DNA from: Symbiodinium sp. CCMP2592
Lineage: Eukaryota; Sar; Dinophyceae; Suessiales; Symbiodiniaceae
Assembly (NCBI GenBank): GCA_905221615.1
Contig: CAJNDT010000330.1
Span: 177,051-241,050, forward strand
Direction: 5' to 3'
DNA: 64,000 bases
The notes under the pieces were generated by a model. That model saw nothing but the letters and a program-made list of their open reading frames with translations, was not told where the DNA came from and searched no databases. Positions 9,901 to 48,902 of the stretch are shown here, one piece after another (within the stretch, counting starts at the first letter, position 1; the number at the start of each line of letters is the position of its first letter). The position numbers were made by a program, and so were the translations under genes.

Positions 9901-12900
9901 CTACAAGCAGACGTGCATCACCGAGAGCACCTGGCCCTTTCCATTTCGTTCGTGTTCTGAGACTATTCGCTTGGGGTTGTTGAAGGTTTTGGCTTTTGGG
10001 AGGTGCCGTCTGATTAAAGGTGTCGTATGGCATGTTCGCCTAGGTTTGTCTGTCCCACCCCTATCGTACGGACAGGCTTGTGGGGTTCCTTGGACCTTCT
10101 GCGGATTTTTTCCAAGGATTTTGACGGGGAGTTTCCATGGTAACCGGATAAAGGCAGCTGAGCTTGCAGCTTGATGCCTGTGATGAGCGCATAGCTTTGC
10201 AAAGGGGAGATCTTCGAGAACGAGAAGAAGGCTATCTGCGATCAGTACAAGAGCATCAATGTGGCCCGGCTTGCTTGTGACCTTAGCCTTAACTCTCAGT
10301 CTTGGAGCACCAGTACTGCAACCTGAACGGACGAAGATTACAACCAACCTATCCTGCTGCTGATACTATTCAGGATGGGCATCCAGATTCCATTCACCCC
10401 GAAACCAGATGTCGAAACTTAAGCCGACATCCTAAAGCCCTAATTACCGTGTATAGCTCTGGCCTTCTCAGCAGCTCAAGACGCCGAACGCCGAAAGCAT
10501 GCCGTCCAGGAGATGCATGTGTTGTTTCCCCAGGTGAACTCTACATTCCAATTATGAGACTCTTCGAAGCTTCCCATACTCAGTCTCCGAGGTCTTCCCG
10601 AACCCGACGACCACCTGTGTGATGGCCGAGGGCACCGCGGTGTGGGCCCCAAGAAAGTTTCAGGGCTTTGGGATGCTTTGGGTTTGTTTGGGGCTTGAGT
10701 CAAGGGTTTGGAGGTTCAGCCGGTTCAGGGCTCGGGTCTTGAGATTCCTGAACCCGAAGCCCCAAATCGTTACCTCCTCAGCAAAGTCTCAGGTTCCAAC
10801 CATCGGCAACTACTTGACTGCAATGGAGGAACACTTCACCAAGAAGCACGAGACGCTGAAGGATAGCCGTTGTCTGGGATGAGGGTCCAATTTTTTTTTT
10901 CTCCGAGGGTGCCGTTAAGATGTGTCAGGAGTGGAAGGACAAGTGCGACACCGCCCTTGCTACTCCGTTCCCGGGCGATCCGTTGTGCTTCGAGAAGGTT
11001 TGTACGTACTACGCCCCTCTGCTGATGGTATGAGCTGTACTCAAGCGTCAGTCTAGACAGGCAATCCTCTTGGAGATCGTTCTAGCTACCTGACATTCAA
11101 ACATGTGTTCTTTAATCCACCGGGATGTTGAGTTTGGACACACTCCTTGACTTTCCAAAATGCAAAAGTGCCAAGAGTTGAACGGTCCAATGTACACGAG
11201 TAACGAAGAGTAAGATCAATCACTGTGCCTGTCCTGATTGCAGAGTGGCACCGGGGTTTGTGGAAAGCATGGAGGGCTTAGTTCTAGCATTGGGCGAAGT
11301 GGTTAGGTGTCATCCAGGAGCTTAGACGTGCAAGCTCAGAGCGCGCGCGTGAGCTGGAGGTCCATGATCTGGGTCTACAGTTTGGTTATCATAGTGTTGA
11401 GTTGCATATTTTTCTTGTTGCAAGATGGCTTCATCTTGGAGGGTTTTTTGTGTTCAGTATCCGAAACCGCCTTACGACCGCCGTTCTGAGCAGCGATGAA
11501 GACCCGAAGGCCGAAACCGCCGAATCCAGAGCCCTAGACAAACCTGCGGGGATCGTGCCTAAGGACAAGAAGATCGACTGCGACAAGAAGCAAGCGACTT
11601 TCGAGCAGAAATCCTGTGATTTGCACCGCACCTACCGCTGTAGAGCCCTGGAGGCATTGGCATTGGCCCACGGTTTTTGAGTCAGGGTTCAGTAGCCTTC
11701 CAGGCGTTGTTGTGTTGATACTGCAGGCTTCCCTAACTTCGAGCTCCCAAACGTGCAGCTTCCGGGGTTGAGCCTGGCAAAGAACTCAACCTTGGAATGG
11801 CCCAAGAAAGCCCGAAAGCCTAACCACTAACCCCTAAACCCAAGCCCCAAACAACCCAAGATCCAGAGCTTCCAGGGTCCCAAGACCCCAAAAGGGACAC
11901 GACTCTACACTGAGACTACAAAACAGAGCCCGGTGCTCAGGCAGCTACACGAGCTGCTACGATCAGCGCAAGGTCAGAGCTGGGTTGGCAGCCAAAAATT
12001 CTTTCAAAGGTCACAGGGTGCAGATTTCGCACTCGTGCCGAGGGACGAGGTACGACAGTGTATGCTAGCGCCAGTATCCCTTTGGGAAACATCGAAGGTG
12101 TTTCGCTAGAAAACGTCGAAGGGGTTTTCCTCTGAAGCTAAACAGAACGAAGCTTGTCTGTTTGCTAGAGTGTCTGCACATGGCCGGTGAGCCCAGCACG
12201 ATCAGTGCGGCTAGAGAGGAGCGACTGCTAGAGGTTTGGGCAAGGAAGCTCCGTGAAGAGCTGCTAGAGATACATGCCCCGGTTCTCGCTAAGCTGCACG
12301 GGAGTCTGGACCCCGCGAGGGCAGCTATCTTGCTTCCGGGGAAGACCCGGGCGTCGACTCTGAAGCGCTACCTGAGCTACTACAGGCAGTGGCGCCAATG
12401 GCTCCACGCAGCTAAGCTCAGGCCGCCCCCGGTCACCGCCGCGGACCTGGTGGATTACCTCCTCGCTAGGAGTGATGAACCCTGCGGCCGTTCGGTCCCA
12501 GAAGCTATTCTCAAGGCTATCTCCTGGATGGAGAAGGTGGCCGATTTCCCGGTGGAGCTAAGGACCACCTTTGGTCGCCTGGTCTGGGCCGCTAAGGACA
12601 GCATTGTGGAGCAGCTAGCGGAGGGGGCCCCCCTGATCAAGAGAGCGCCCCGCTATCCCGTCTACATGCTGGTGCAGCTAGAGCTCGTGGTCATCAACCC
12701 CGCCCTGGCCGCAGGCTGGCGGATCTGGGCCTGGGCTAAGTTGGTCAAGGTCTGGGCCACGCTAAGATGGTCGGACCTTCAGGCTATCCTGCCGGCCGAG
12801 CTAGTGATGGTGGAGGGGCGACTCACCACCATCCTCCGGAAGACCAAGACTTCCGGCGCTACGAGAAGGGTCAAGGAGCTACCGGTCGTGGTGTCCGAGC

Positions 12901-13997
12901 ACGCCTTTCTGGTCGCTAAGAGCTGGCTGGTGACCGGCTTCGATCTCCTCAAGGCCCACGCTAACTACGCCCGGGATTACCTCATGCCGCGGCTGGGCCG
13001 GGCGGGGCAGCTGGAAAAGAAGATGGCTACCTATGCGGACGCTATGGTGGCAACCGCGGGGCTGCTGGCTATCATGGGCTACCCACGGGAGGTCCAGGGC
13101 TATTGGACGGAGCACAGTGAGCGTTCGGTGCTACCAACAGGTTTGGCGCTAAAGGAGATCCCCCCGCAAGACAAGGATCTGCTAGGGCGTTGACCCGAGG
13201 GGTCCGACGTGTACGCTAGATCCTATGCGGGTAGGGTGTCCCGTCTCCAAGCTCTCTTCGCTAAGACAGCTAGGGGGGACGACCGCTACGAGGCGCTCGA
13301 CGAGCGGGAAATCGCCGCGGACCTCGAGCCCTGGCTGGAAGAGAGGGCCAAGCTAACCCACAGCCAGGCCATCCAAATGGCGGCGAGGCTGCGGAAGATC
13401 TGGATGGAGGGCCTGCTAGGAGTCCCGACCGAGGCCGAAGAGCTAGAGGTTCCCGAGGGACCGGACGAGCCCGCGGAACCGCTAGTGGCCGGGAGTAGCT
13501 CCGAGGCCTCTGCAGAGGTCGTGGAACGGCCCGCTAAGAAGCAGGCCAGGGTTCCCGACCGCAGCCAGGGCAGCTATGTAATCGTAGAGGTCCCAGGCGC
13601 CATTTTCCGCCTGCACAAAGCGGGCGCTACAGGTTGCTGGATGGGGAAGCGGCGTGCTTTCCGCAACGCTAGGGTTTTTGATTCGGTTCCGGAGCCGCAC
13701 GAGTACACACATGTGTGCAAGCTATGCTGGCCGAACCAGGGGGCTATCTCCGAAGGGGACGCTAGCGAAGGATCGCTCGCTAACTCGGAAGATGACGAGG
13801 CCCCAGAGGATCACGCACCGGGGTCCGCTAGCAGTCATCCTTGAGCGCAGGGCGTGCTAAGCCGCCGAACTCGCACTCGCACTGAGGCTAGAAAGGCTGC
13901 TAGGTCGGCACCCTCTTTTCCTTTCCCCTCTGTCTCCCTCTCTCTCTCTCTCTTCCCTCCCTTGCGAAACGCCGCTAGTTTTTGAAGGGGGTGTGCT

Positions 13998-14061
<64 letters not shown>

Positions 14062-17000
14062 GAAAGAAGAGAGTGGTGGGCTTGCTACATGTCACTTGCT
14101 GTTGCCTGTGTTGTGTTTTCGTGTTCCGCTAGTGTCTTGCAGGAGGAGCAAGGAGCGAAGGCAGGCGCTAGGAAACCGGGGCCGGGCGACCCCTCTTCTG
14201 GCCACCCAGGGAACACAGGAGCTAGGTGAGGAGCCAGTGCTTGCGCTAGGTCCGTCTTGCAGGAAGGAGCTAAGGAGCGGAGGAAGGCGCTACGAAACGT
14301 GCGGGCCTTGCACCCGCGAGGCAACAGGGCTACAAAGGAGCTAGGCGCAGGAGCCAGTGACTGTGCTAAACCTCCTCCCACGGGTAGCCTTCGGCTTCGC
14401 TACCTTGGGGTAGCTAGATTTTCTTTAGCCGTTTCACCTGATCCGTGCCTTGGGCGCCGCTATGGGAGGAAAAGGCAAGGATGCCAGCGCTACAACGCCC
14501 AAGGGCGCAGGGCCGCCAGGTGGCCCAGCTACGGCAGAGCAGCCCGCTAGTGGAGACTACCTCCCGGAGACCCTCCGCGGTCTGCGGAAGGCGCTACGGT
14601 TTAGGCCGTTGGAGTGCGCCGAGGGTCTGCCACGCTACCTCGACAAGCCTCTGCTACAGGAGCTGATCGCTATGTCCCAAGAGGCGATCGAGACGCTAGA
14701 CAAAGAGTCCCCGCCACGGAAGTGGATAGGGGCCGGGCTACGCCAGCAGAGCCCCGCTAACCTGATGGAGCGGCGAGTTCTATCCGCTACTAGCTGGGCC
14801 GACCTGTCCCAGGAGGACATCGCTAGCTTGGACGAAGCTATGTCCGCGGGCCTCACGCTCGCCGCTGCCAATGCGGCCGCTAGCGCTGCGAAGGCCAAGG
14901 CCCGCAAGGACGCGGAGGCCGCAGCCGCTAAGCTGGCGCTAGAGAAAAAGGCCGAGCACGACCAGAGGGTCGCAGCGGCCGCGCTAGAGCAAAAGCGGAA
15001 GGAGGCCGCGGAGCGGCTCGCTAAGGAGGAGCAGGCCGCCGAGCTGGAGTACCAGCAGGCGGTGGCCGCTAGCAAAGCCTCCCTGCAGGCCGCAGAGGAG
15101 GCCGCTACCACAGACGCCACCGCTGCCGCTACTGCCGCCGACACCACGGCACCGGCTAACATGGACCCTACGCCGGCAGAGTCGGCCGCTAAGAGGTTCA
15201 TGGAGATTAGGGCCGCTAGCCCCTCGCCCCCTCGCGCTACCAGCCCGAGCCGGGGCCGAGGCAAGGGCGCTAAGGGCAAGCCGGCCGAGGGCAAGGGCCA
15301 GCCGCCCGCTACAATCAATGTGTTCGACTACACGTGGGGCACGCTATTCGAGGATCCCGACCGCTACCTGGAGTTGCTACGCCGCGAGCTCCAGCAGGAC
15401 CGCGCTATCCAGCAGGTGGGGGGCATGCCCGCTAACGTCCGCTTCGCTAAGGGCACGCCAGTGAGCGTGGCGCTAAAGGGACGAGCCAGACCCCCCCCGG
15501 GGGCCCACGCTAACAGTCTCCCCAAGGGGGAGGGCTACTGGTACCTCGAGCTCTCGTGGTCCGCTATTGACCGCGATCTGTGGCCGCTAGGCTCCTGGGA
15601 CCAGCGCCATGAGAAGGGGAAAGGCAAGGGGCCTAACCCCCGCTACGGCAAGGGTGCCGATGGCACGCTACTGAAGAGCGCTATCCACCATGGAGAGCAC
15701 CTCTACTCGCTAGGGAGGGAAGACGTGGCACTTATGTGTCGCTACACCCATCCTCCCGCTAACACGCCCCAGGGGGAGCGCGCTAGCGAGTTGCTGGCCA
15801 TGCTGCTACCAAGCTGCTATACGCAGTACCAGCCTGGACGCTGCCGCTACTCCCTAGGCCACTGGGACGCTAACGCCTGTATTTTCAGGTGCGCTACGAC
15901 CTGCGAGGTCTGTTCGCTAAGAGCCTGTAACAGGCGGATGTGGTTTAAGTGCGACGACCACGCTACTCACTGTTGTGATGGGTGCAAGCAGTGGAGCCGC
16001 GGGGAGGACTGGGGCGGCCGCTAAGACGGGCAGCCCCTGCCTCGCTACAGGCCCCGGCCTCGCTACTTGCACCCGCTACTTTTGCTTTGCATGCGGCTAC
16101 TCTTGCAGCGCCCTCTGCTGCCGACCGCTAGCTGCAGCAAAAGTTCAGGCCGTCCCTCGCTACAGTTGCCAGTGTGTGCACGCTACAGTCATGCTACACA
16201 CATGTCGGCAGCCAGAAAGAAGGGAGGGCTAGAGCGAGAGAGTGTCGAGAGTTTTGGGGAGGGAGGGGCCGGGGTCGGTGGGGCTGCTAGTGCCGCTCTT
16301 TGCTGCAGCGACCCCCTTTTAGCGAAAGCTATCGACTGGCACTCCCTCGCACACTCTCACGCTAGGAGCTTTCCCCCAATGTGCTAGCAGGAATTTTTCC
16401 CTTGAAGTTTTTCCCTAAGGTGGCGTAGGGCCCGTCGTGCCTGCTACCATGGCAGAGGCTCTGGCGAAGAAGCTAGCCCTCGGAAGCAGCGAGCTTCGAT
16501 TCCTGCTAGTGCAACATAAAGTCTCGGATGCTATCCAATCCGAGCTCTTTTCCAACGGTATTGATACCGTCGCTAAATTTGCAGCCTCGGCAACAGATGA
16601 GGCGGACCTCAAGAAGATGCTAAAGGACAGCTTCGCAATTGAGCCGTCCACCTCGCTCGCTAGCCGCGCTCAGGCCGCGGGGGTCACCATCGCATGGAGG
16701 ACCGCTACCTCCCGCTCCGAGCGGCAAGCGGAGGCGGAGGCTACAAGCGAGGTCCGGGACTGGGCAAAGCCCATCCCCGCTACGGACTATATGGCCATGC
16801 GCCAGGCCTTCACCGCTAAGTTCGGAGACCTGGAGGACAAGCAAACCCCCGCTAAAGAGTACCTTGAGAAGAAGCTAGGCGAGCTCGAATCTGGCGAGTT
16901 CCGGGCCGAGCCGCTAACCGAGGTCATTAGCCGGGACGAGTGGGACCCCGACACGCTACTGCCCGTCTGGAATGGCAATGGCACGCTATCCATGAAGAAG

Positions 17001-20000
17001 GGGGGAGCTAGGGCCCCCATGCCTTCTGGGCCGGAGCAGCTACGGCTGCGGCTCACGGTGCTCCAGAACACGCTAATCATGATGCAGCTAAGGCACCCCA
17101 ACCGGGGAGGAGCTACAGGATGTCACTATGGCCCTCTTCGAGCGCTACAAAGACTATCTTCTCGGAGACTATTGCTATGGTCTCCGGTCCAGTGCCGACT
17201 CGGGGTCGCTAGTGCCCCCGTGGACCTTGGTGCTCAGCTACGAGCACGCTATCAGGAAGCACGCGTACAAGGTCATGGCCACGCCGGCTATTCCTTCGGC
17301 GCTGCGCTAGTCCTTGCCTACAAGGACGCTAGCGTGAAGGAGAGGCACTTCACTACACCGCTAGCCCTCCATGCTAAGCGGCCGCAGCCCTGGACCTGGA
17401 CGGAGGAGCGGCCTGCTAAGACCCCCAAGGGGAAGGGCAAAGGCAAAGATGCCCCCCCCAAGGGGGGCAAAGCTAAGAAGCGCCTGGGTGCCGATCGCAC
17501 CCCGCAGGGGAAGCCCATCTGCTTCCGCTACAATGCCAAGGGATGCAAGAATGGCAACAAGTGCCATTTCGAGCACGTTTGCTCGCTATGCTTCGGCAAG
17601 CACCCAGCTACGAAGTGCCCCACCAAGCAAACGGAGACCGCTAAGGAGGATAAGCCCTCCAACTGACCCGCTACGGCGGCTGCGCCCTCAGTGCCTGTGA
17701 CCCCCCCGGGGGGGGAAGCTACGCCAGCCCCACTGGCGGCCGCTACGCACACAAAGCCGCTACGGGTGCTCTACCTCTTCTCGGGTACCTCGCGCCGGCT
17801 AGATGTGGCGCAGTGTTTGCACCAGCTAGCAGCAGAGTTCGACAAAGACGTGAGGGTCGAGTGTGTCGACCTGCTACGGCACGCTAAATACGACCTCAGT
17901 CAGCCCAAGATTCGGCAAAGCTACCTGGACCGGATCGCTAGCAAGGAGTTCGACGCGGTGGTGCTCTCCCCGCCGTGCGCTAGCTTCTCCAGAGCGCCTT
18001 GGGCTAACTTTCAAGGGCCCCGCCCGGTGCGCAGCTACGAGTTTCCCCGAGGTCTGGAAACGCTAACACCTGCAGAGCGAGACCGCGCTATCCTGGGCAA
18101 CATTTTTGCGGATTTCAGCTTTGCGGTCGCTACCCTCGTGGCCGACGGTGCAGCTACGAGGACCTTGGGGCCCTCGCTAAGGGCCCGCATCAAGGGACAC
18201 GGCCGGCTTCTATGTGGCAGTGGCCGCCGCTAGCCGACCTTCTGCAAAAGGGGCTACGGACCGTGGCCTTCCACCAGGCTAGTTTTGGTACGCCATACGC
18301 TAAGCCGACGCGGCTGCTGCTAAAATGCTCTTCTGCTATGCCCGACTTCGTACACGAAGGCCTGCCGTGCTATGACAAAAAGGGCTGCTACACAGGACCG
18401 CTGCCTTCTGCTGCTACCTGGGGCCGCATGTTCAAGCGCCCCGCTAAGGGCCCCTTCAAGACCTCAGGTTCCGAGAAGTGGCCCGCTAGGATGTGCCAGT
18501 GGCTGGCTACCCTGATTCTGGACTCCTGCCAGCACCCTGCTACCGCTGCCCAGGGGGAGGGGGGTGGCGCTAGGCCGGAGTGCCCGCTACCCGAGACCTT
18601 CCCGCTGTGAGCCGGAGGGTCCGCGAGTGCTAGGGGGTTCAGGGCCACCAAGGACCTGCCAACAGCTAGGTGGCAACAAGAGCTACCATGATGGTGGGGG
18701 CCTCTGCTCCCCAGGACGCTGGCCCCACGCTACCCGCAGCTACGCCGAAGGTCCCAACTGGGACTGGCTACGGGAGAAAATGATGGAGGTGATCCTCGCT
18801 AAGATAGGTTCGGAAGCGGAGCTAGAGAAGGAAGCCTTCCGCATGGCTGCCGGGGGGGCCACGGGCTGTGCCCTAGCTAGCTCCGAAGATCTCCAGGAGC
18901 AGCTACGCTTGATCTGGAAAGAGTGGCTGGAAGCTAATGACCTGGGAGACCCGGAGCTGCTAAAGGTGGCCCCGGGGCAGCCGCTATACCTCCGCCTCAT
19001 CCGGGCGCTACTGACCGCGGCCGGCGATCCCGACAGGGACTTCCTCCTCCAGGCCGAGGAGGGGCTACCGGTGGGGGTGAGAGACCCGCTACCACGCACT
19101 CCCACGTCTTCGAGGAACAGCTAAAGTGGCCCTTGGAGAACGCCCCTTGGGAGGCGGCGCTAGCCTGGGTCCCGAACTACTCCTCGGTGGAGGAGTACCG
19201 TGAGTTCGCTAGGGAGAAGTTCGAAGAGGACGTGGCGGAGGGCCTCATGGTCAAGATGACGCTAGGCGAGTTCAAAGCCCGCTATGGCGAGCATCGAGCC
19301 ATCGCCGCGCTAGCTGTCATCGTCGAGGACGAAGCTAGTGGAAAGAAGAGGATGATCCACGATGCTACCCACGGGGTCCGGGTCAACCACCGCATTAAGT
19401 GCAGGGACAAGATCCGGGCCCCAGGAGCTAGGGAGAAGAAGCAGCTACTTCGGGAGCACATCGACGCTAACGAGGTGGCCTTCTCCGTGGTGGGCGACAT
19501 CGCTAAAGCTCACCGACGCTACAAACATGCCGAAGGAGAGCATGGCTACCTAGGGTGTCAGATCGACACCGAGGAAGCTACACCGGGGGACCCCGACAGC
19601 CAGACGGTTTACGTTAATCTGGTGGGGACCTTCGGGCTATCATGTGCGAGCTACTGGTGGACCCGCATAGCGGCGTGTGGGCTTCGACTCACCTACCACC
19701 TGCTAGGGCCATCGTTCCCGCTAGACATGCTTCTCTATGCCGACGACCTCGAGTCCTTGGGCCGAGGGGCTAGAGGACGCATGGGGATCCCGCTAAGCTA
19801 TCTCTTCCTCGCTAGTCTTGGGTACCCCTTCAAGTGGGCCAAGACGAGGGGGGGATTTCGGGTGGAGTGGCTAGGCATGGAAACCGAGTACTCCACCTGG
19901 AGGCTAGGCCTGTCTCAGAAGAGAACCGACTGGCTAGTGGAATGGCTACGGAAGCTAGTCCGAGATGGGAAGTGTGAGGCCCGGCCCTTCGCACAAGGGC

Positions 20001-23000
20001 TAGGGCGCCTGGGGTTCGCTTCCATGGCGCTAGACTGGGAGCGCCCCTTCCTGGGACCGCTACACGCCTGGTCTTCGGCCGTTCAGGGGAAGCTGGGGCT
20101 CCTCACGCTACCCACGATGATTCGCGTCCTCTGTGGCTGGCTAGCAGACCGCCTGGAAGCGGGGGGCCGTCTCCAGAAGCCGGCCTCGCTATTGGACGGG
20201 GCGGCACCGCTCTCCTTCTACACCGACGCTAAAGCCGAGAATGGACGTGCCTGGATTGGGGGCTTCCTCGAGCTAGTGGACGGCTGCCACGGTCCCTGGT
20301 TCTCGCTAGAGGTGAAGAAGGAATGGGCCCCCTGGGCCTTCGCTAAAGGAGACCCGAACAAGGTCATAGCCGCGTTGGAGCTACTGGCTACTCTGGTTGG
20401 TGTGAGGCTCTGGGTCCCGGAAGGGGATGCCAAGAAGACCTCCAAGGTGGCCATCCGGGGCTACACTGACAACCAGTCCAACGAAGCGCTACTGAAGAAG
20501 GCTATGACGACGAAGTTCCCATCGACCTTGGTGTTGATGGAGCTAGCAGAGGAACTCTCCGCTAAGAACTGTGAGCTTCAGCTACAGTGGATCCGCAGGG
20601 ATCTGAACCAGCTAGCGGACGATCTCACGAACGAGAACTTCGCTAGTTTCTCCCCGGACTTCAGGGTGAACCTGGCGGGGGAGAAGCTAGAGTGGCGCGT
20701 GCTGGGCCGTCTCCTCGAACACTCGGCTAGCTACTTCCAAGAGCTAGGAGTGAGGAAAAGGACCGGAGAGCCGAAGGCTCCGAGGTTCGCTAAGAAGGCC
20801 CGTAAGCTAGGTCCCTGGTAGCCCTACGGCTGCGCAAGGAGATTAGCTAGCAAAAGGCTAGAGTTCTTCTCCGGGCTAACGCGGGACTTCGCCACAACGC
20901 TAAAAAGAGAGAAGTTCGTGTTGTCCGTGCTACTGCGTGAAGCCAGCTAGCTTAAGCTAGGCTTGCTACGTACTCCCCGGAGGTGTAGAGGGAGGTGGCG
21001 GGAGGATACGCTAGCTAGTGTACGCACTCGTGCCGAGGGACGAGGTACGACAGTGTATGCTAGCGCTAGTATCCCTTTGGGAAACATCGAAGGTGTTTCG
21101 CTAGAAAACGTCGAAGGGGTTTTCCTCTGAAGCTAAACAGAACGAAGCTTGTATGTTTGCTAGAGTGTCTGCACATGGCCGGTGAAGCAGTGCTACTCCG
21201 TGGCCATTGTGCTGAAAGGCCCCCAGCTATTGGGGGGCAAATTTCGAGTGCCCACCCAACCCACCCTGGAGATTAGCTAGCCGAAGGCTAGAGTTCTTCT
21301 CCGGGCTAACGCGGGACTTCGCCACAACGCTAAAAAGAGAGAAGTTCGTGTTGTCCGTGCTACTGCGTGAAGCCAGCTAGCTTAAGCTAGGCTTGCTACG
21401 TACTCCCCCAAGGTGTAGAGGGAGGTGGCGGGAGGATACGCTAGCTAGTGTACAGGTTTGTCTCGACTGCAGAGTCTTGGCCTAAACCGCAAGGTTTCGA
21501 TTCACTCGCAAATCCGCAACTTCAGCCCCCGGGACCTGGACCTACACCCTAAATCCCAAACGTGCACGCCCAACTTCCCTCCCCTTTCGCCCCAGAGCGC
21601 CTAACTCGAAACTCCAAGCCGCGGCTCGCCTAGTGTGGAAGTGTGTCAAGCCCAAACCCAGATTCCGGAGTTCTGATGTTTCAGAGTCTTGAGCTTCATT
21701 TGGTGTCTGGATTTTGGACTTCAGACAGTGTGTGCAGGGTTAACTTAGGGTTTGCGATGGGAGCCGAAAGCGCATAGCCTTGAAGCCTCAACCTTGATGC
21801 TTATTGGGGTGGCAGGACGTCTACGGGAACGTCGTCTCCCTGGCAAAGGAGAGTGAAGTGGCTGCGAAATCTGAGTGGAGGGCCGTCAAAAGGACTCGAT
21901 CTGCATCGACTGCATGCAGATGGGCGTAAGCATGCGGTGTGACGGGCATGGTTTTTGACATGGGAATTGGGCGCTTGGGTCCGGAGTCGAGGAGTCAGGT
22001 CGCCAACCACCGCAGCATCACACAGTTGATGTGACCACCGGAATGGAGCAGTAGATATCCGTGCAGTAGTTGTTGTTCTTGCACACGGTACGTTGTCATT
22101 CGATGCAGTGACCAGCCCCAAAAACCCAAATCCCCGAAGAATCAGTTGTGAGATCAGCTTTTGCACTGCGACGGTAAAGTCTTTTTTCCACGCATTTCAA
22201 GCAGGATTGAGTGTCTCATCAACGCTCTGCGCGTCGCAGAGAGCGAGCTAGAAGGAGCCATCGATGCGTGCAAGGTGGGCGGCCTACTAAGTGGGTTGGA
22301 ACCCACCCCGACACGAGCTGTAGACCTCAAACCCCGAAACCCCGAAGCGCCCAAGCGTCCTTAACCCTGAGCCCTATACCCTAAGCCCCTTAATCCGAAG
22401 CCCAAAGCCTATGTAACCCCTAAGCTCCTAAACCCTACTGCCCGCAGCACAGGCCAAGAGGCACACGACGGAGCCTGTTGAGTTGACATACCACGGTGAC
22501 CCTCCAGCAGCAAGATCCTGCCAGGAGGTGCCTGAGAGGGTTCACAGGTTGGGGGATTTTTGAGCGTTCCGGGCCTGGTCTTAACGGTTTCGGGCTTCCA
22601 GGCTTCATGTGAGAGCTGTGTGCTTCGCGATTGGTCTTGTTTTCTTTGCTTCATTGAGGAGCCACCATCACTTGTGATTTCACCCCCAAGAAAAGCAGGT
22701 CTACTTGCAGCCCGGATCTGCAGTGTTCTCGAGCACGTGGTACACTGGCATGCCTGTTGATGCGCCCGCGGCGAGCTGTGCCTCCTCGCAGGGCCCTCAG
22801 CTTCAGGCACTTGTACGGTTTGATGGGGTCTTTGGCAATCATGGTCTAAGGCAAGGTCGCTGGTATTCAGGCTGGAGAGTGACTTTGAGTCCTACCCAGG
22901 CCATTGCTTGAATGATAATGCGCAGCCCTCACAGTACGAAAGGTTGGCCTTGAAAGCTCAGCTTGCCACACCAGAAGCGCCAGATGAGGATTTTAATTTC

Positions 23001-37869: not shown

Positions 37870-48902
<11,033 letters not shown>

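Follow-up and report, generated by a model that had tools for sequence, protein, structure and literature searches.

Why should a retroelement repeat the same tetranucleotide, GCTA, on one strand about every 31 nucleotides (nt) over its whole length, in coding and non-coding parts alike? The question is raised by a stretch of 64,000 nt from the dinoflagellate Symbiodinium sp. CCMP2592 (contig CAJNDT010000330.1, positions 177,051 to 241,050 of the forward strand; assembly GCA_905221615.1, 1.098 Gb in 5383 contigs), referred to below as the window, in which an element of 9426 bases, with its sense strand on the (+) strand, occupies positions 12028-21453. The results presented here show that this lattice is kept by purifying selection on nucleotides between active lineages of the element, and we have next to no doubt that it is a selected feature of the sequence. 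An earlier reading, made from the letters alone (the sequence-only reading), had noticed the pattern and proposed that selection acts on RNA or DNA and not on protein; codon permutations, a test of synonymous opportunities and the variants among genomic copies give this proposal strong support.

The element contains 303 GCTA, where 32.5 are expected from base composition and 26 at the rate of the remaining window. Among all 256 tetramers it is the strongest outlier in the observed-to-expected ratio (9.3-fold), followed by CTAC (3.7-fold), which overlaps it; a second-order Markov model, which already contains most of the signal, expects 181. The reverse complement TAGC occurs only 46 times, 33 of them inside GCTAGC. 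GCTA accounts for 303 of the 401 TA dinucleotides, and most other TA contexts are, relative to composition, rarer in the element than in host sequence. The earlier remark that the pattern stops at the element ends was correct (the first site lies at 12064 and the last at 21444, and the 2-kb flanks hold 5 and 1); the small GCTA clusters elsewhere in the window sit in or beside tandem repeats. Local counts of the sequence-only reading were also reproduced, with 19 sites in 12210-12800 (the twentieth claimed straddles position 12800), the same list of gaps, 21 sites in 19159-19800, one and three TAGC in these two stretches, and a single GCTA in the GMC stretch of the window. The sites of the first stretch do fall in all three codon phases, although the third count is 6 and not 7 (10, 3 and 6).

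Codon usage or amino-acid content is disfavoured as the cause by two results. When codons were permuted, all eight tested open reading frames (ORFs), some of which overlap or include out-of-frame stretches, stayed above the largest of 500 permutations (for example, 33 GCTA versus 13.5, maximum 21; in the narrowest case, 15 versus 9.2, maximum 14), and the excess thus remains after a codon-preserving shuffle. In addition, seven ORFs offer 395 places at which GCTA can be written without a change of protein, and 228 of these synonymous opportunities are used. Where GCTA can form, it is found in 106 of 150 Ala and 93 of 214 Leu codons, whereas GCT is used in 13 of 167 Ala codons and CTA in 1 of 49 Leu codons where it cannot. 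Within the recombinase frame every GCT codon (16/16) is followed by A and every CTA codon (12/12) is preceded by G, just as had been reported. The non-coding spacers carry the word as well (3 in 134, 16 in 605, 13 in 412 and 27 in 632 nt), at a density of one per 23 to 45 nt, again as first described.

The gaps between sites, with a mean of 31 nt, are far more regular than expected by chance, which bears out the initial impression: their coefficient of variation (CV) is 0.47, against 0.88 +/- 0.05 for random placement, and none of 2000 random placements was as regular. Among the 302 gaps, 28 exceed 50 nt, 7 exceed 60 nt and only one exceeds 75 nt; this last gap (13974-14084, 110 nt) contains a run of 62 G residues (13999-14060). 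The use of the synonymous opportunities rises steadily with the distance to another GCTA, from 10% within 6 nt, 15% at 6-10 nt and 41% at 10-15 nt, through 64% at 15-20 nt, 81% at 20-25 nt and 88% at 25-30 nt, to 93% at 30-40 nt and 100% (19/19) beyond 40 nt. The corresponding gap CV is 0.43, compared with 0.80 when the choice among the same opportunities is random (0/3000). This rise in use with distance and a CV far below that of random choice show that one GCTA is demanded per interval: a site with another close by is almost neutral, and a lone one almost indispensable.

The lattice would need no function if GCTA had been spread by a mutational or conversion drive, or if it were an artefact of sequencing. 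Drive can spread a functionless word, as argued for bacterial uptake sequences in the available part of PMC1939737, and several one-step neighbours of GCTA are rarer in the element than in host sequence (observed/expected 1.06 versus 1.41 for GCAA, 1.04 versus 1.45 for GCTG, and 1.03 versus 1.69 for GCTT). The genomic copies of the element, however, point in another direction. The alignment comprised 28 sequences: the window element, starting at 12328, and 27 further copies. Of these copies 17 are longer than 8.5 kb, and they diverge from the window element by 2.2-5.9%; the copy test excluded the G run and any column with fewer than 15 letters. All 27 copies carry the lattice, in line with the earlier suggestion to look for it in relatives, and in 25 of them the gap CV is 0.44-0.52 (the exceptions, L011 and L012, have CVs of 0.70 and 0.98 and longest gaps of 310 and 423 nt). 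Private variants, present in one copy only, hit GCTA columns at the neutral rate (87 of 696, or 12.5%, for a column share of 13.0%), whereas shared variants avoid them. At fourfold sites there are 6 shared variants per 253 GCTA columns and 228 per 1007 columns outside (odds ratio relative to private variants 0.12, p = 1.4e-7); over all columns the odds ratio is 0.16 (p = 3e-13), and the avoidance is also significant at first codon positions (p = 5e-4). This contrast makes mutation bias, hypermutation and sequencing error unlikely as sources of the lattice. Private changes created GCTA 10 times and destroyed it 60 times, the counts of GCCA, GCAA and GCTG in the element are near the composition expectation, the spacing is regular, and outside GCTAGC the reverse complement shows no enrichment. 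An artefact is further contradicted by the presence of a lattice in all 27 other copies and in four diverged families. Drive or artefact is, in our judgement, very improbable.

Sites that do turn over between subfamilies (23 in number) have a median distance of 13 nt to another GCTA, versus 22 nt for the 245 fixed sites (p = 6e-5). We identified two reciprocal swaps, over 13 and 6 nt: of the three sites that only the window copy and L009 have, two lie within 16 nt of one of the six that are particular to the other clade (0.065 expected; P = 0.002).

The comparisons that follow refer to these parts of the element, all on the + strand:

12028-21453, + strand: the complete retroelement; lattice of 303 GCTA with a mean gap of 31 nt and a CV of 0.47
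12028-12190, + strand: terminal repeat A1; copy A2 differs at 2 of 163 positions, one being GCCA versus GCTA
12162-13193, + strand: tyrosine recombinase-like ORF without Pfam match; HSER at 13113-13124; 33 GCTA
13209-13844, + strand: extends the recombinase ORF and includes a Cys-rich C-terminal segment; 17 GCTA
13845-14449, + strand: non-coding spacer with lattice, 16 GCTA in 605 nt; holds the run of 62 G at 13999-14060
14450-16024, + strand: Ala/Lys-rich ORF with a Cys/His-rich end, function unassigned, without Pfam match; 54 GCTA
16025-16436, + strand: non-coding spacer with lattice, 13 GCTA in 412 nt
16437-17666, + strand: Gag-like ORF with 37 GCTA; at its end a CCCH-like finger (from 17520) precedes a CCHC-like knuckle (from 17580)
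17691-18610, + strand: methyltransferase-like domain, split over two frames in the window copy; SPPC at 17967-17978; PF00145 at 14.8 bits (cut-off 22)
19133-20821, + strand: putative reverse transcriptase (RT)/RNase H ORF; YADD from 19736, YTDN from 20462; 53 GCTA
20838-21023, + strand: terminal repeat B1; copy B2 is 98% identical
21023-21185, + strand: terminal repeat A2, copy of A1
21268-21453, + strand: terminal repeat B2, copy of B1; the last GCTA of the element is at 21444

A search of the same genome with the recombinase-like protein yielded 118 scored places among 1777 candidates. Of these places 88, many having open frames, are at least 90% identical, 2 are at 77% and 28 at 63-66%. The families represented, with pairwise amino-acid identities of 58-77%, all keep a lattice. 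In L031 (77% identical to the window) there are 57 GCTA in 2 kb (CV 0.52), and in L029 and L032 (66%) 99 in 4 kb and 59 in 2.5 kb (CV 0.62 and 0.50). In the family of L030 and L033 (64%), the word itself is changed: GGCTA occurs 75 times (16-fold enriched) and GGATA 36 times (9-fold) in 4 kb. The two forms belong to one lattice. The CV in L030 is 0.83 for GCTA alone and 1.09 for GATA alone, but 0.59 for the joint set G[CA]TA (null 0.86); in L033 these values are 0.57, 0.90 and 0.47. GATA fills the holes between GCTA, lying within 12 nt of one in only 16% (L030) and 0% (L033) of cases, versus 41% and 37% for random placement (p = 2e-4 and 5e-4). A fifth family, L049, which over aligned parts is 69% identical to L030, 63% to the window and 59% to L029, also uses GG[C/A]TA (37 GGCTA and 16 GGATA in 2.5 kb). 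The word is thus GCTA in three families and GG[C/A]TA in two. Flanking preferences differ too: G is avoided before GCTA in the window family and favoured before the token in L030 and L049, and in L029 an A is favoured two bases after it. Subfamilies of L030 that are about 18% apart, mostly by third-position differences, have 59-75% of token positions in common, compared with 42-44% identity for other tetramers, and the CV of G[C/A]TA stays at 0.46-0.56 in the four copies measured. In all five families the sense word is far above its reverse complement (TAGC: 6 in L031, 9 in L029, 26 in L030 and 10 in L049; TATCC: 4 in L030 and 2 in L049).

These results bear on two further explanations. The first is a mark at the level of DNA, the tokens being sites for a DNA-modifying enzyme of the element or the host, or for a DNA-binding protein. 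The element does contain a methyltransferase-like domain (PF00145 at 14.8 bits, below the cut-off), and dinoflagellates are rich in 5-hydroxymethyluracil, according to the part of PMC11071213 available. The sense orientation in five of five families speaks against such a mark, and so, for cytosine modification, does a token of the same lattice in which the C has given way to A. The mapping of 5-hydroxymethyluracil in Breviolum revealed, within the available part of that report, no motif and no sequence preference (PMC11071213). We regard a DNA-level mark as improbable; of the candidates that had been listed at the outset, cytosine methylation fits poorly for the reason given (GGATA, which lacks this C, stands beside GGCTA in two families), and RNA packaging by Gag appears to fit best.

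The second is a mark that exempts the element from host silencing or RNA processing (small-RNA production, splicing or decay), with a GCTA-free stretch of about 30-50 nt being recognized as foreign. The PATC signals of nematodes, which license expression in the germline, offer an analogy, and a penalty that depends on length fits the gap rule. A host reader should nevertheless favour one token for all elements, yet two tokens coexist in one genome. Furthermore, the lattice is absent from 15 control loci, hand-picked from lists of 150 and 66 matches, namely seven RVT_1 stretches, probably of the long interspersed nuclear element (LINE) type, with 3-10 GCTA per 1.5 kb, and eight that match other Pfam recombinases (PF00589) and have 2-13 GCTA per 2 kb. 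An exemption mark seems unlikely to us.

What, then, reads the tokens? Sense polarity in five of five families, together with the occurrence of tokens in all frames and in spacers, favours RNA or single-stranded cDNA, and we consider it likely that the lattice acts on the sense RNA or its cDNA. Since the token differs between families within one genome, its reader is probably encoded by the element. We propose that the sense RNA carries short linear tokens that leave few stretches longer than about 50-60 nt without one, and that these would be read, on the RNA or on minus-strand cDNA, by the zinc fingers, CCCH- and CCHC-like, of the Gag-like protein. If a single Gag unit sat on each token, at intervals of roughly 30 nt, Gag could coat and select the element's own full-length RNA, which would then go to particle assembly or reverse transcription. 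The Gag fingers are favoured because CCCH fingers of the tristetraprolin type recognize, in single-stranded RNA, words some four nucleotides long; we would give this putative reader a little less than an even chance. The intact-looking Gag of L033 reaches 19.6 bits with zf-CCCH (PF00642), just below the cut-off of 20.5 (E = 9e-4), and its best phmmer matches in PDB are tristetraprolin (1m9o, E = 0.0014), a TIS11d-type protein (0.03), CPSF30 (0.17) and U2AF23 (0.33). The matching finger has the spacing C-x8-C-x5-C-x3-H, the window copy differing in its first interval (C-x7-C-x5-C-x3-H). The Pfam search with the window Gag returned only PF25585, weakly (14.3 bits, cut-off 30), and L032 Gag gave no match. 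It is conceivable, although we hold the idea tentatively, that the private word of each family serves as a self-recognition code, the word and the zinc-finger reader diverging together so that the RNAs of sister elements are kept apart.

The second large ORF (14450-16024 in the window; 2359-3732 in L029) has no Pfam match over the cut-off, and its Cys/His-rich end is conserved; it is a further candidate for an RNA reader.

Several observations weigh against the Gag proposal or limit the selection argument on which it builds. The Gag copy of the L029 family seems to lack the last zinc ligand, and the finger comparison comprises three sequences, too few for covariation with the token. In predicted local RNA folding, GCTA is no more accessible than in a dinucleotide-preserving null, and at its A even less so, so that these models give no sign of the display in stem-loops known from packaging signals; the slight extra accessibility obtained with a mononucleotide shuffle (0.152 versus 0.122) was removed by the dinucleotide-preserving null. 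Retroviral nucleocapsid covers RNA more densely than one unit per 31 nt. Near-miss tetramers show no clear fall in frequency with distance from GCTA, and L049 is less regular than the other families (CV 0.68-0.72; 0.68 for GG[C/A]TA, P = 0.009). The copy test is not significant for non-coding columns alone (odds ratio 0.45, p = 0.20), for second positions (p = 0.29) or for other third positions (p = 0.051), nor is the private/shared test in the L030 family (odds ratio 1.5, p = 0.23), for which there were 9 copies, two of them on long branches.

The maximum-gap rule, the sense polarity and the presence of tokens in both coding and spacer RNA could also be accounted for if the tokens were preferred cut sites of the element's own RNase H, or were needed elsewhere in reverse transcription. 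For the RNA to fall off a GC-rich hybrid, it would have to be cut at least every 30-50 nt, extra sites being useless, and family-specific tokens would fit an enzyme that is itself element-encoded. A sequence preference of RNase H has reportedly been discussed for the RT of human immunodeficiency virus type 1; we know of no RNase H that needs a tetranucleotide this strictly, and the RNase H domain of the element is seen only as a motif. We consider a role in reverse transcription unlikely, and return to packaging by Gag as the preferred reading.

For that reading, the nearest working analogy seems to be the dispersed packaging signals of single-stranded RNA viruses. In the available part of PMC6281560, those of MS2, picornaviruses and hepatitis B virus are described as many RNA sites with a short common motif whose spacing matters, as in the element; they are stem-loops with a varying motif, whereas the element has a near-invariant linear tetramer every 31 nt throughout. 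By analogy, the presumed reader would in both cases be the genome's own coat-type protein, and the element differs in having a spacing rule with no structural display found. Satellite tobacco necrosis virus is said to be a further case of such dispersed signals. The nearest statistical analogy would be the DNA uptake sequences of Haemophilus and Neisseria, likewise short words over-represented in coding and non-coding DNA (PMC1939737, part available). Uptake sequences are described there as genome-wide, as a feature of double-stranded DNA and as attributable to drive (PMC1939737), whereas GCTA marks one strand of one clade of elements under purifying selection; in the window it is confined to the element's sense strand, in place of a genome-wide excess on both strands. 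As protein readers, the tristetraprolin/TIS11-type CCCH proteins come closest, through the finger of L033 Gag.

A search of the open-access literature, with most subscription papers outside its reach, found no GCTA/GCUA lattice or similar phenomenon, and within the literature searched the lattice is, to our knowledge, undescribed so far; nor did we find an earlier description of coding sequence that obeys, over its full length, a second spacing code free of fixed positions, at one word per 31 nt. The element offers a tractable case of how a mobile element tells its own RNA from that of the host and of sister elements: the word is known, the allowed spacing can be measured, and related families provide natural variants of both the word and its putative reader. 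If Gag is indeed that reader, the lattice would carry the dispersed packaging signals proposed for RNA viruses to a linear extreme. It is also a warning that signals at the nucleic-acid level can dominate the choice of codons in mobile elements.

The element itself belongs to the DIRS-like (tyrosine-recombinase) retroelements or is closely related to them. Its split direct repeats, 98-99% identical, have the order A1-coding-B1-A2-B2 that characterizes this group, and it is multicopy and mobile (40 scored RT matches among 522 candidates in its own genome). SymbioDIRS-Dnmt3 and other DIRS-like retrotransposons of Symbiodinium have this A-coding-B-A-B anatomy (PMC5890265, part available), and SymbioDIRS resembles the element in its tyrosine recombinase ORF, its RT/RNase H (both putative in the element), a methyltransferase-like domain, the split repeats and a dinoflagellate host (PMC5890265). 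The available part of that report mentions neither GCTA nor any other lattice for SymbioDIRS (PMC5890265). Unlike in SymbioDIRS-Dnmt3, the methyltransferase-like domain of the element scores weakly (12.5 bits with PF00145 in L032, no match in the PF00145 search of L033) and its frame is apart from the RT in the copies seen.

Neither the recombinase-like protein, in the window copy or in family members, nor the RT/RNase H ORF, open over 562 amino acids with YADD and YTDN, gave a match in Pfam searches; for the latter this is in line with the poor alignment of Symbiodinium DIRS RTs with Pfam (PMC5890265, part available). In PDB the RT ORF matched only crystallins and small heat-shock proteins, which we attribute to chance. 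HSER and further conserved residues were found in the recombinase-like protein across three families. Several motifs named here, including YADD for the RT and YTDN for RNase H, are taken as typical of these proteins. A GATGC peptide present in three ORFs was considered and dismissed, having no single shared nucleotide word behind it. Several frames of the window copy are interrupted, the sequence having been taken as given and left unmended: the recombinase-like frame is broken near its end (long open frames are common among other copies), and the Gag-like frame appears broken internally in comparison with L032 and L033. Scans of the viral_contigs and genome_contigs collections found no relatives of the element, and the window yielded nothing with either ARAGORN (tRNA, bacterial code) or Rfam.

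An RVT_1 stretch (L040, 1-1500) has a bias of another kind, with 29 CACA on the sense strand versus 3 TGTG, in all phases and without regular spacing. Contig C5051 of this algal assembly, with two very strong phage-integrase matches (E below 1e-43), is possibly a bacterial contaminant. The dinoflagellate spliced leader is absent from the window and occurs 429 times exactly in the assembly (0 for the reversed control), which marks the host as a dinoflagellate. In four cases, spotted by eye among 100 listed of the 429 places (contigs C52, C522, C645 and C737), an exact leader lies 1.42-1.48 kb 5′ of an L030-family recombinase piece on the same strand, which suggests trans-splicing of this family's RNA and copying of the leader into DNA. 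In the host flank of the window, at 41322-46837, there are microsatellite-like arrays with units such as TAG, TGTA, GATGGAAG and ATATGT.

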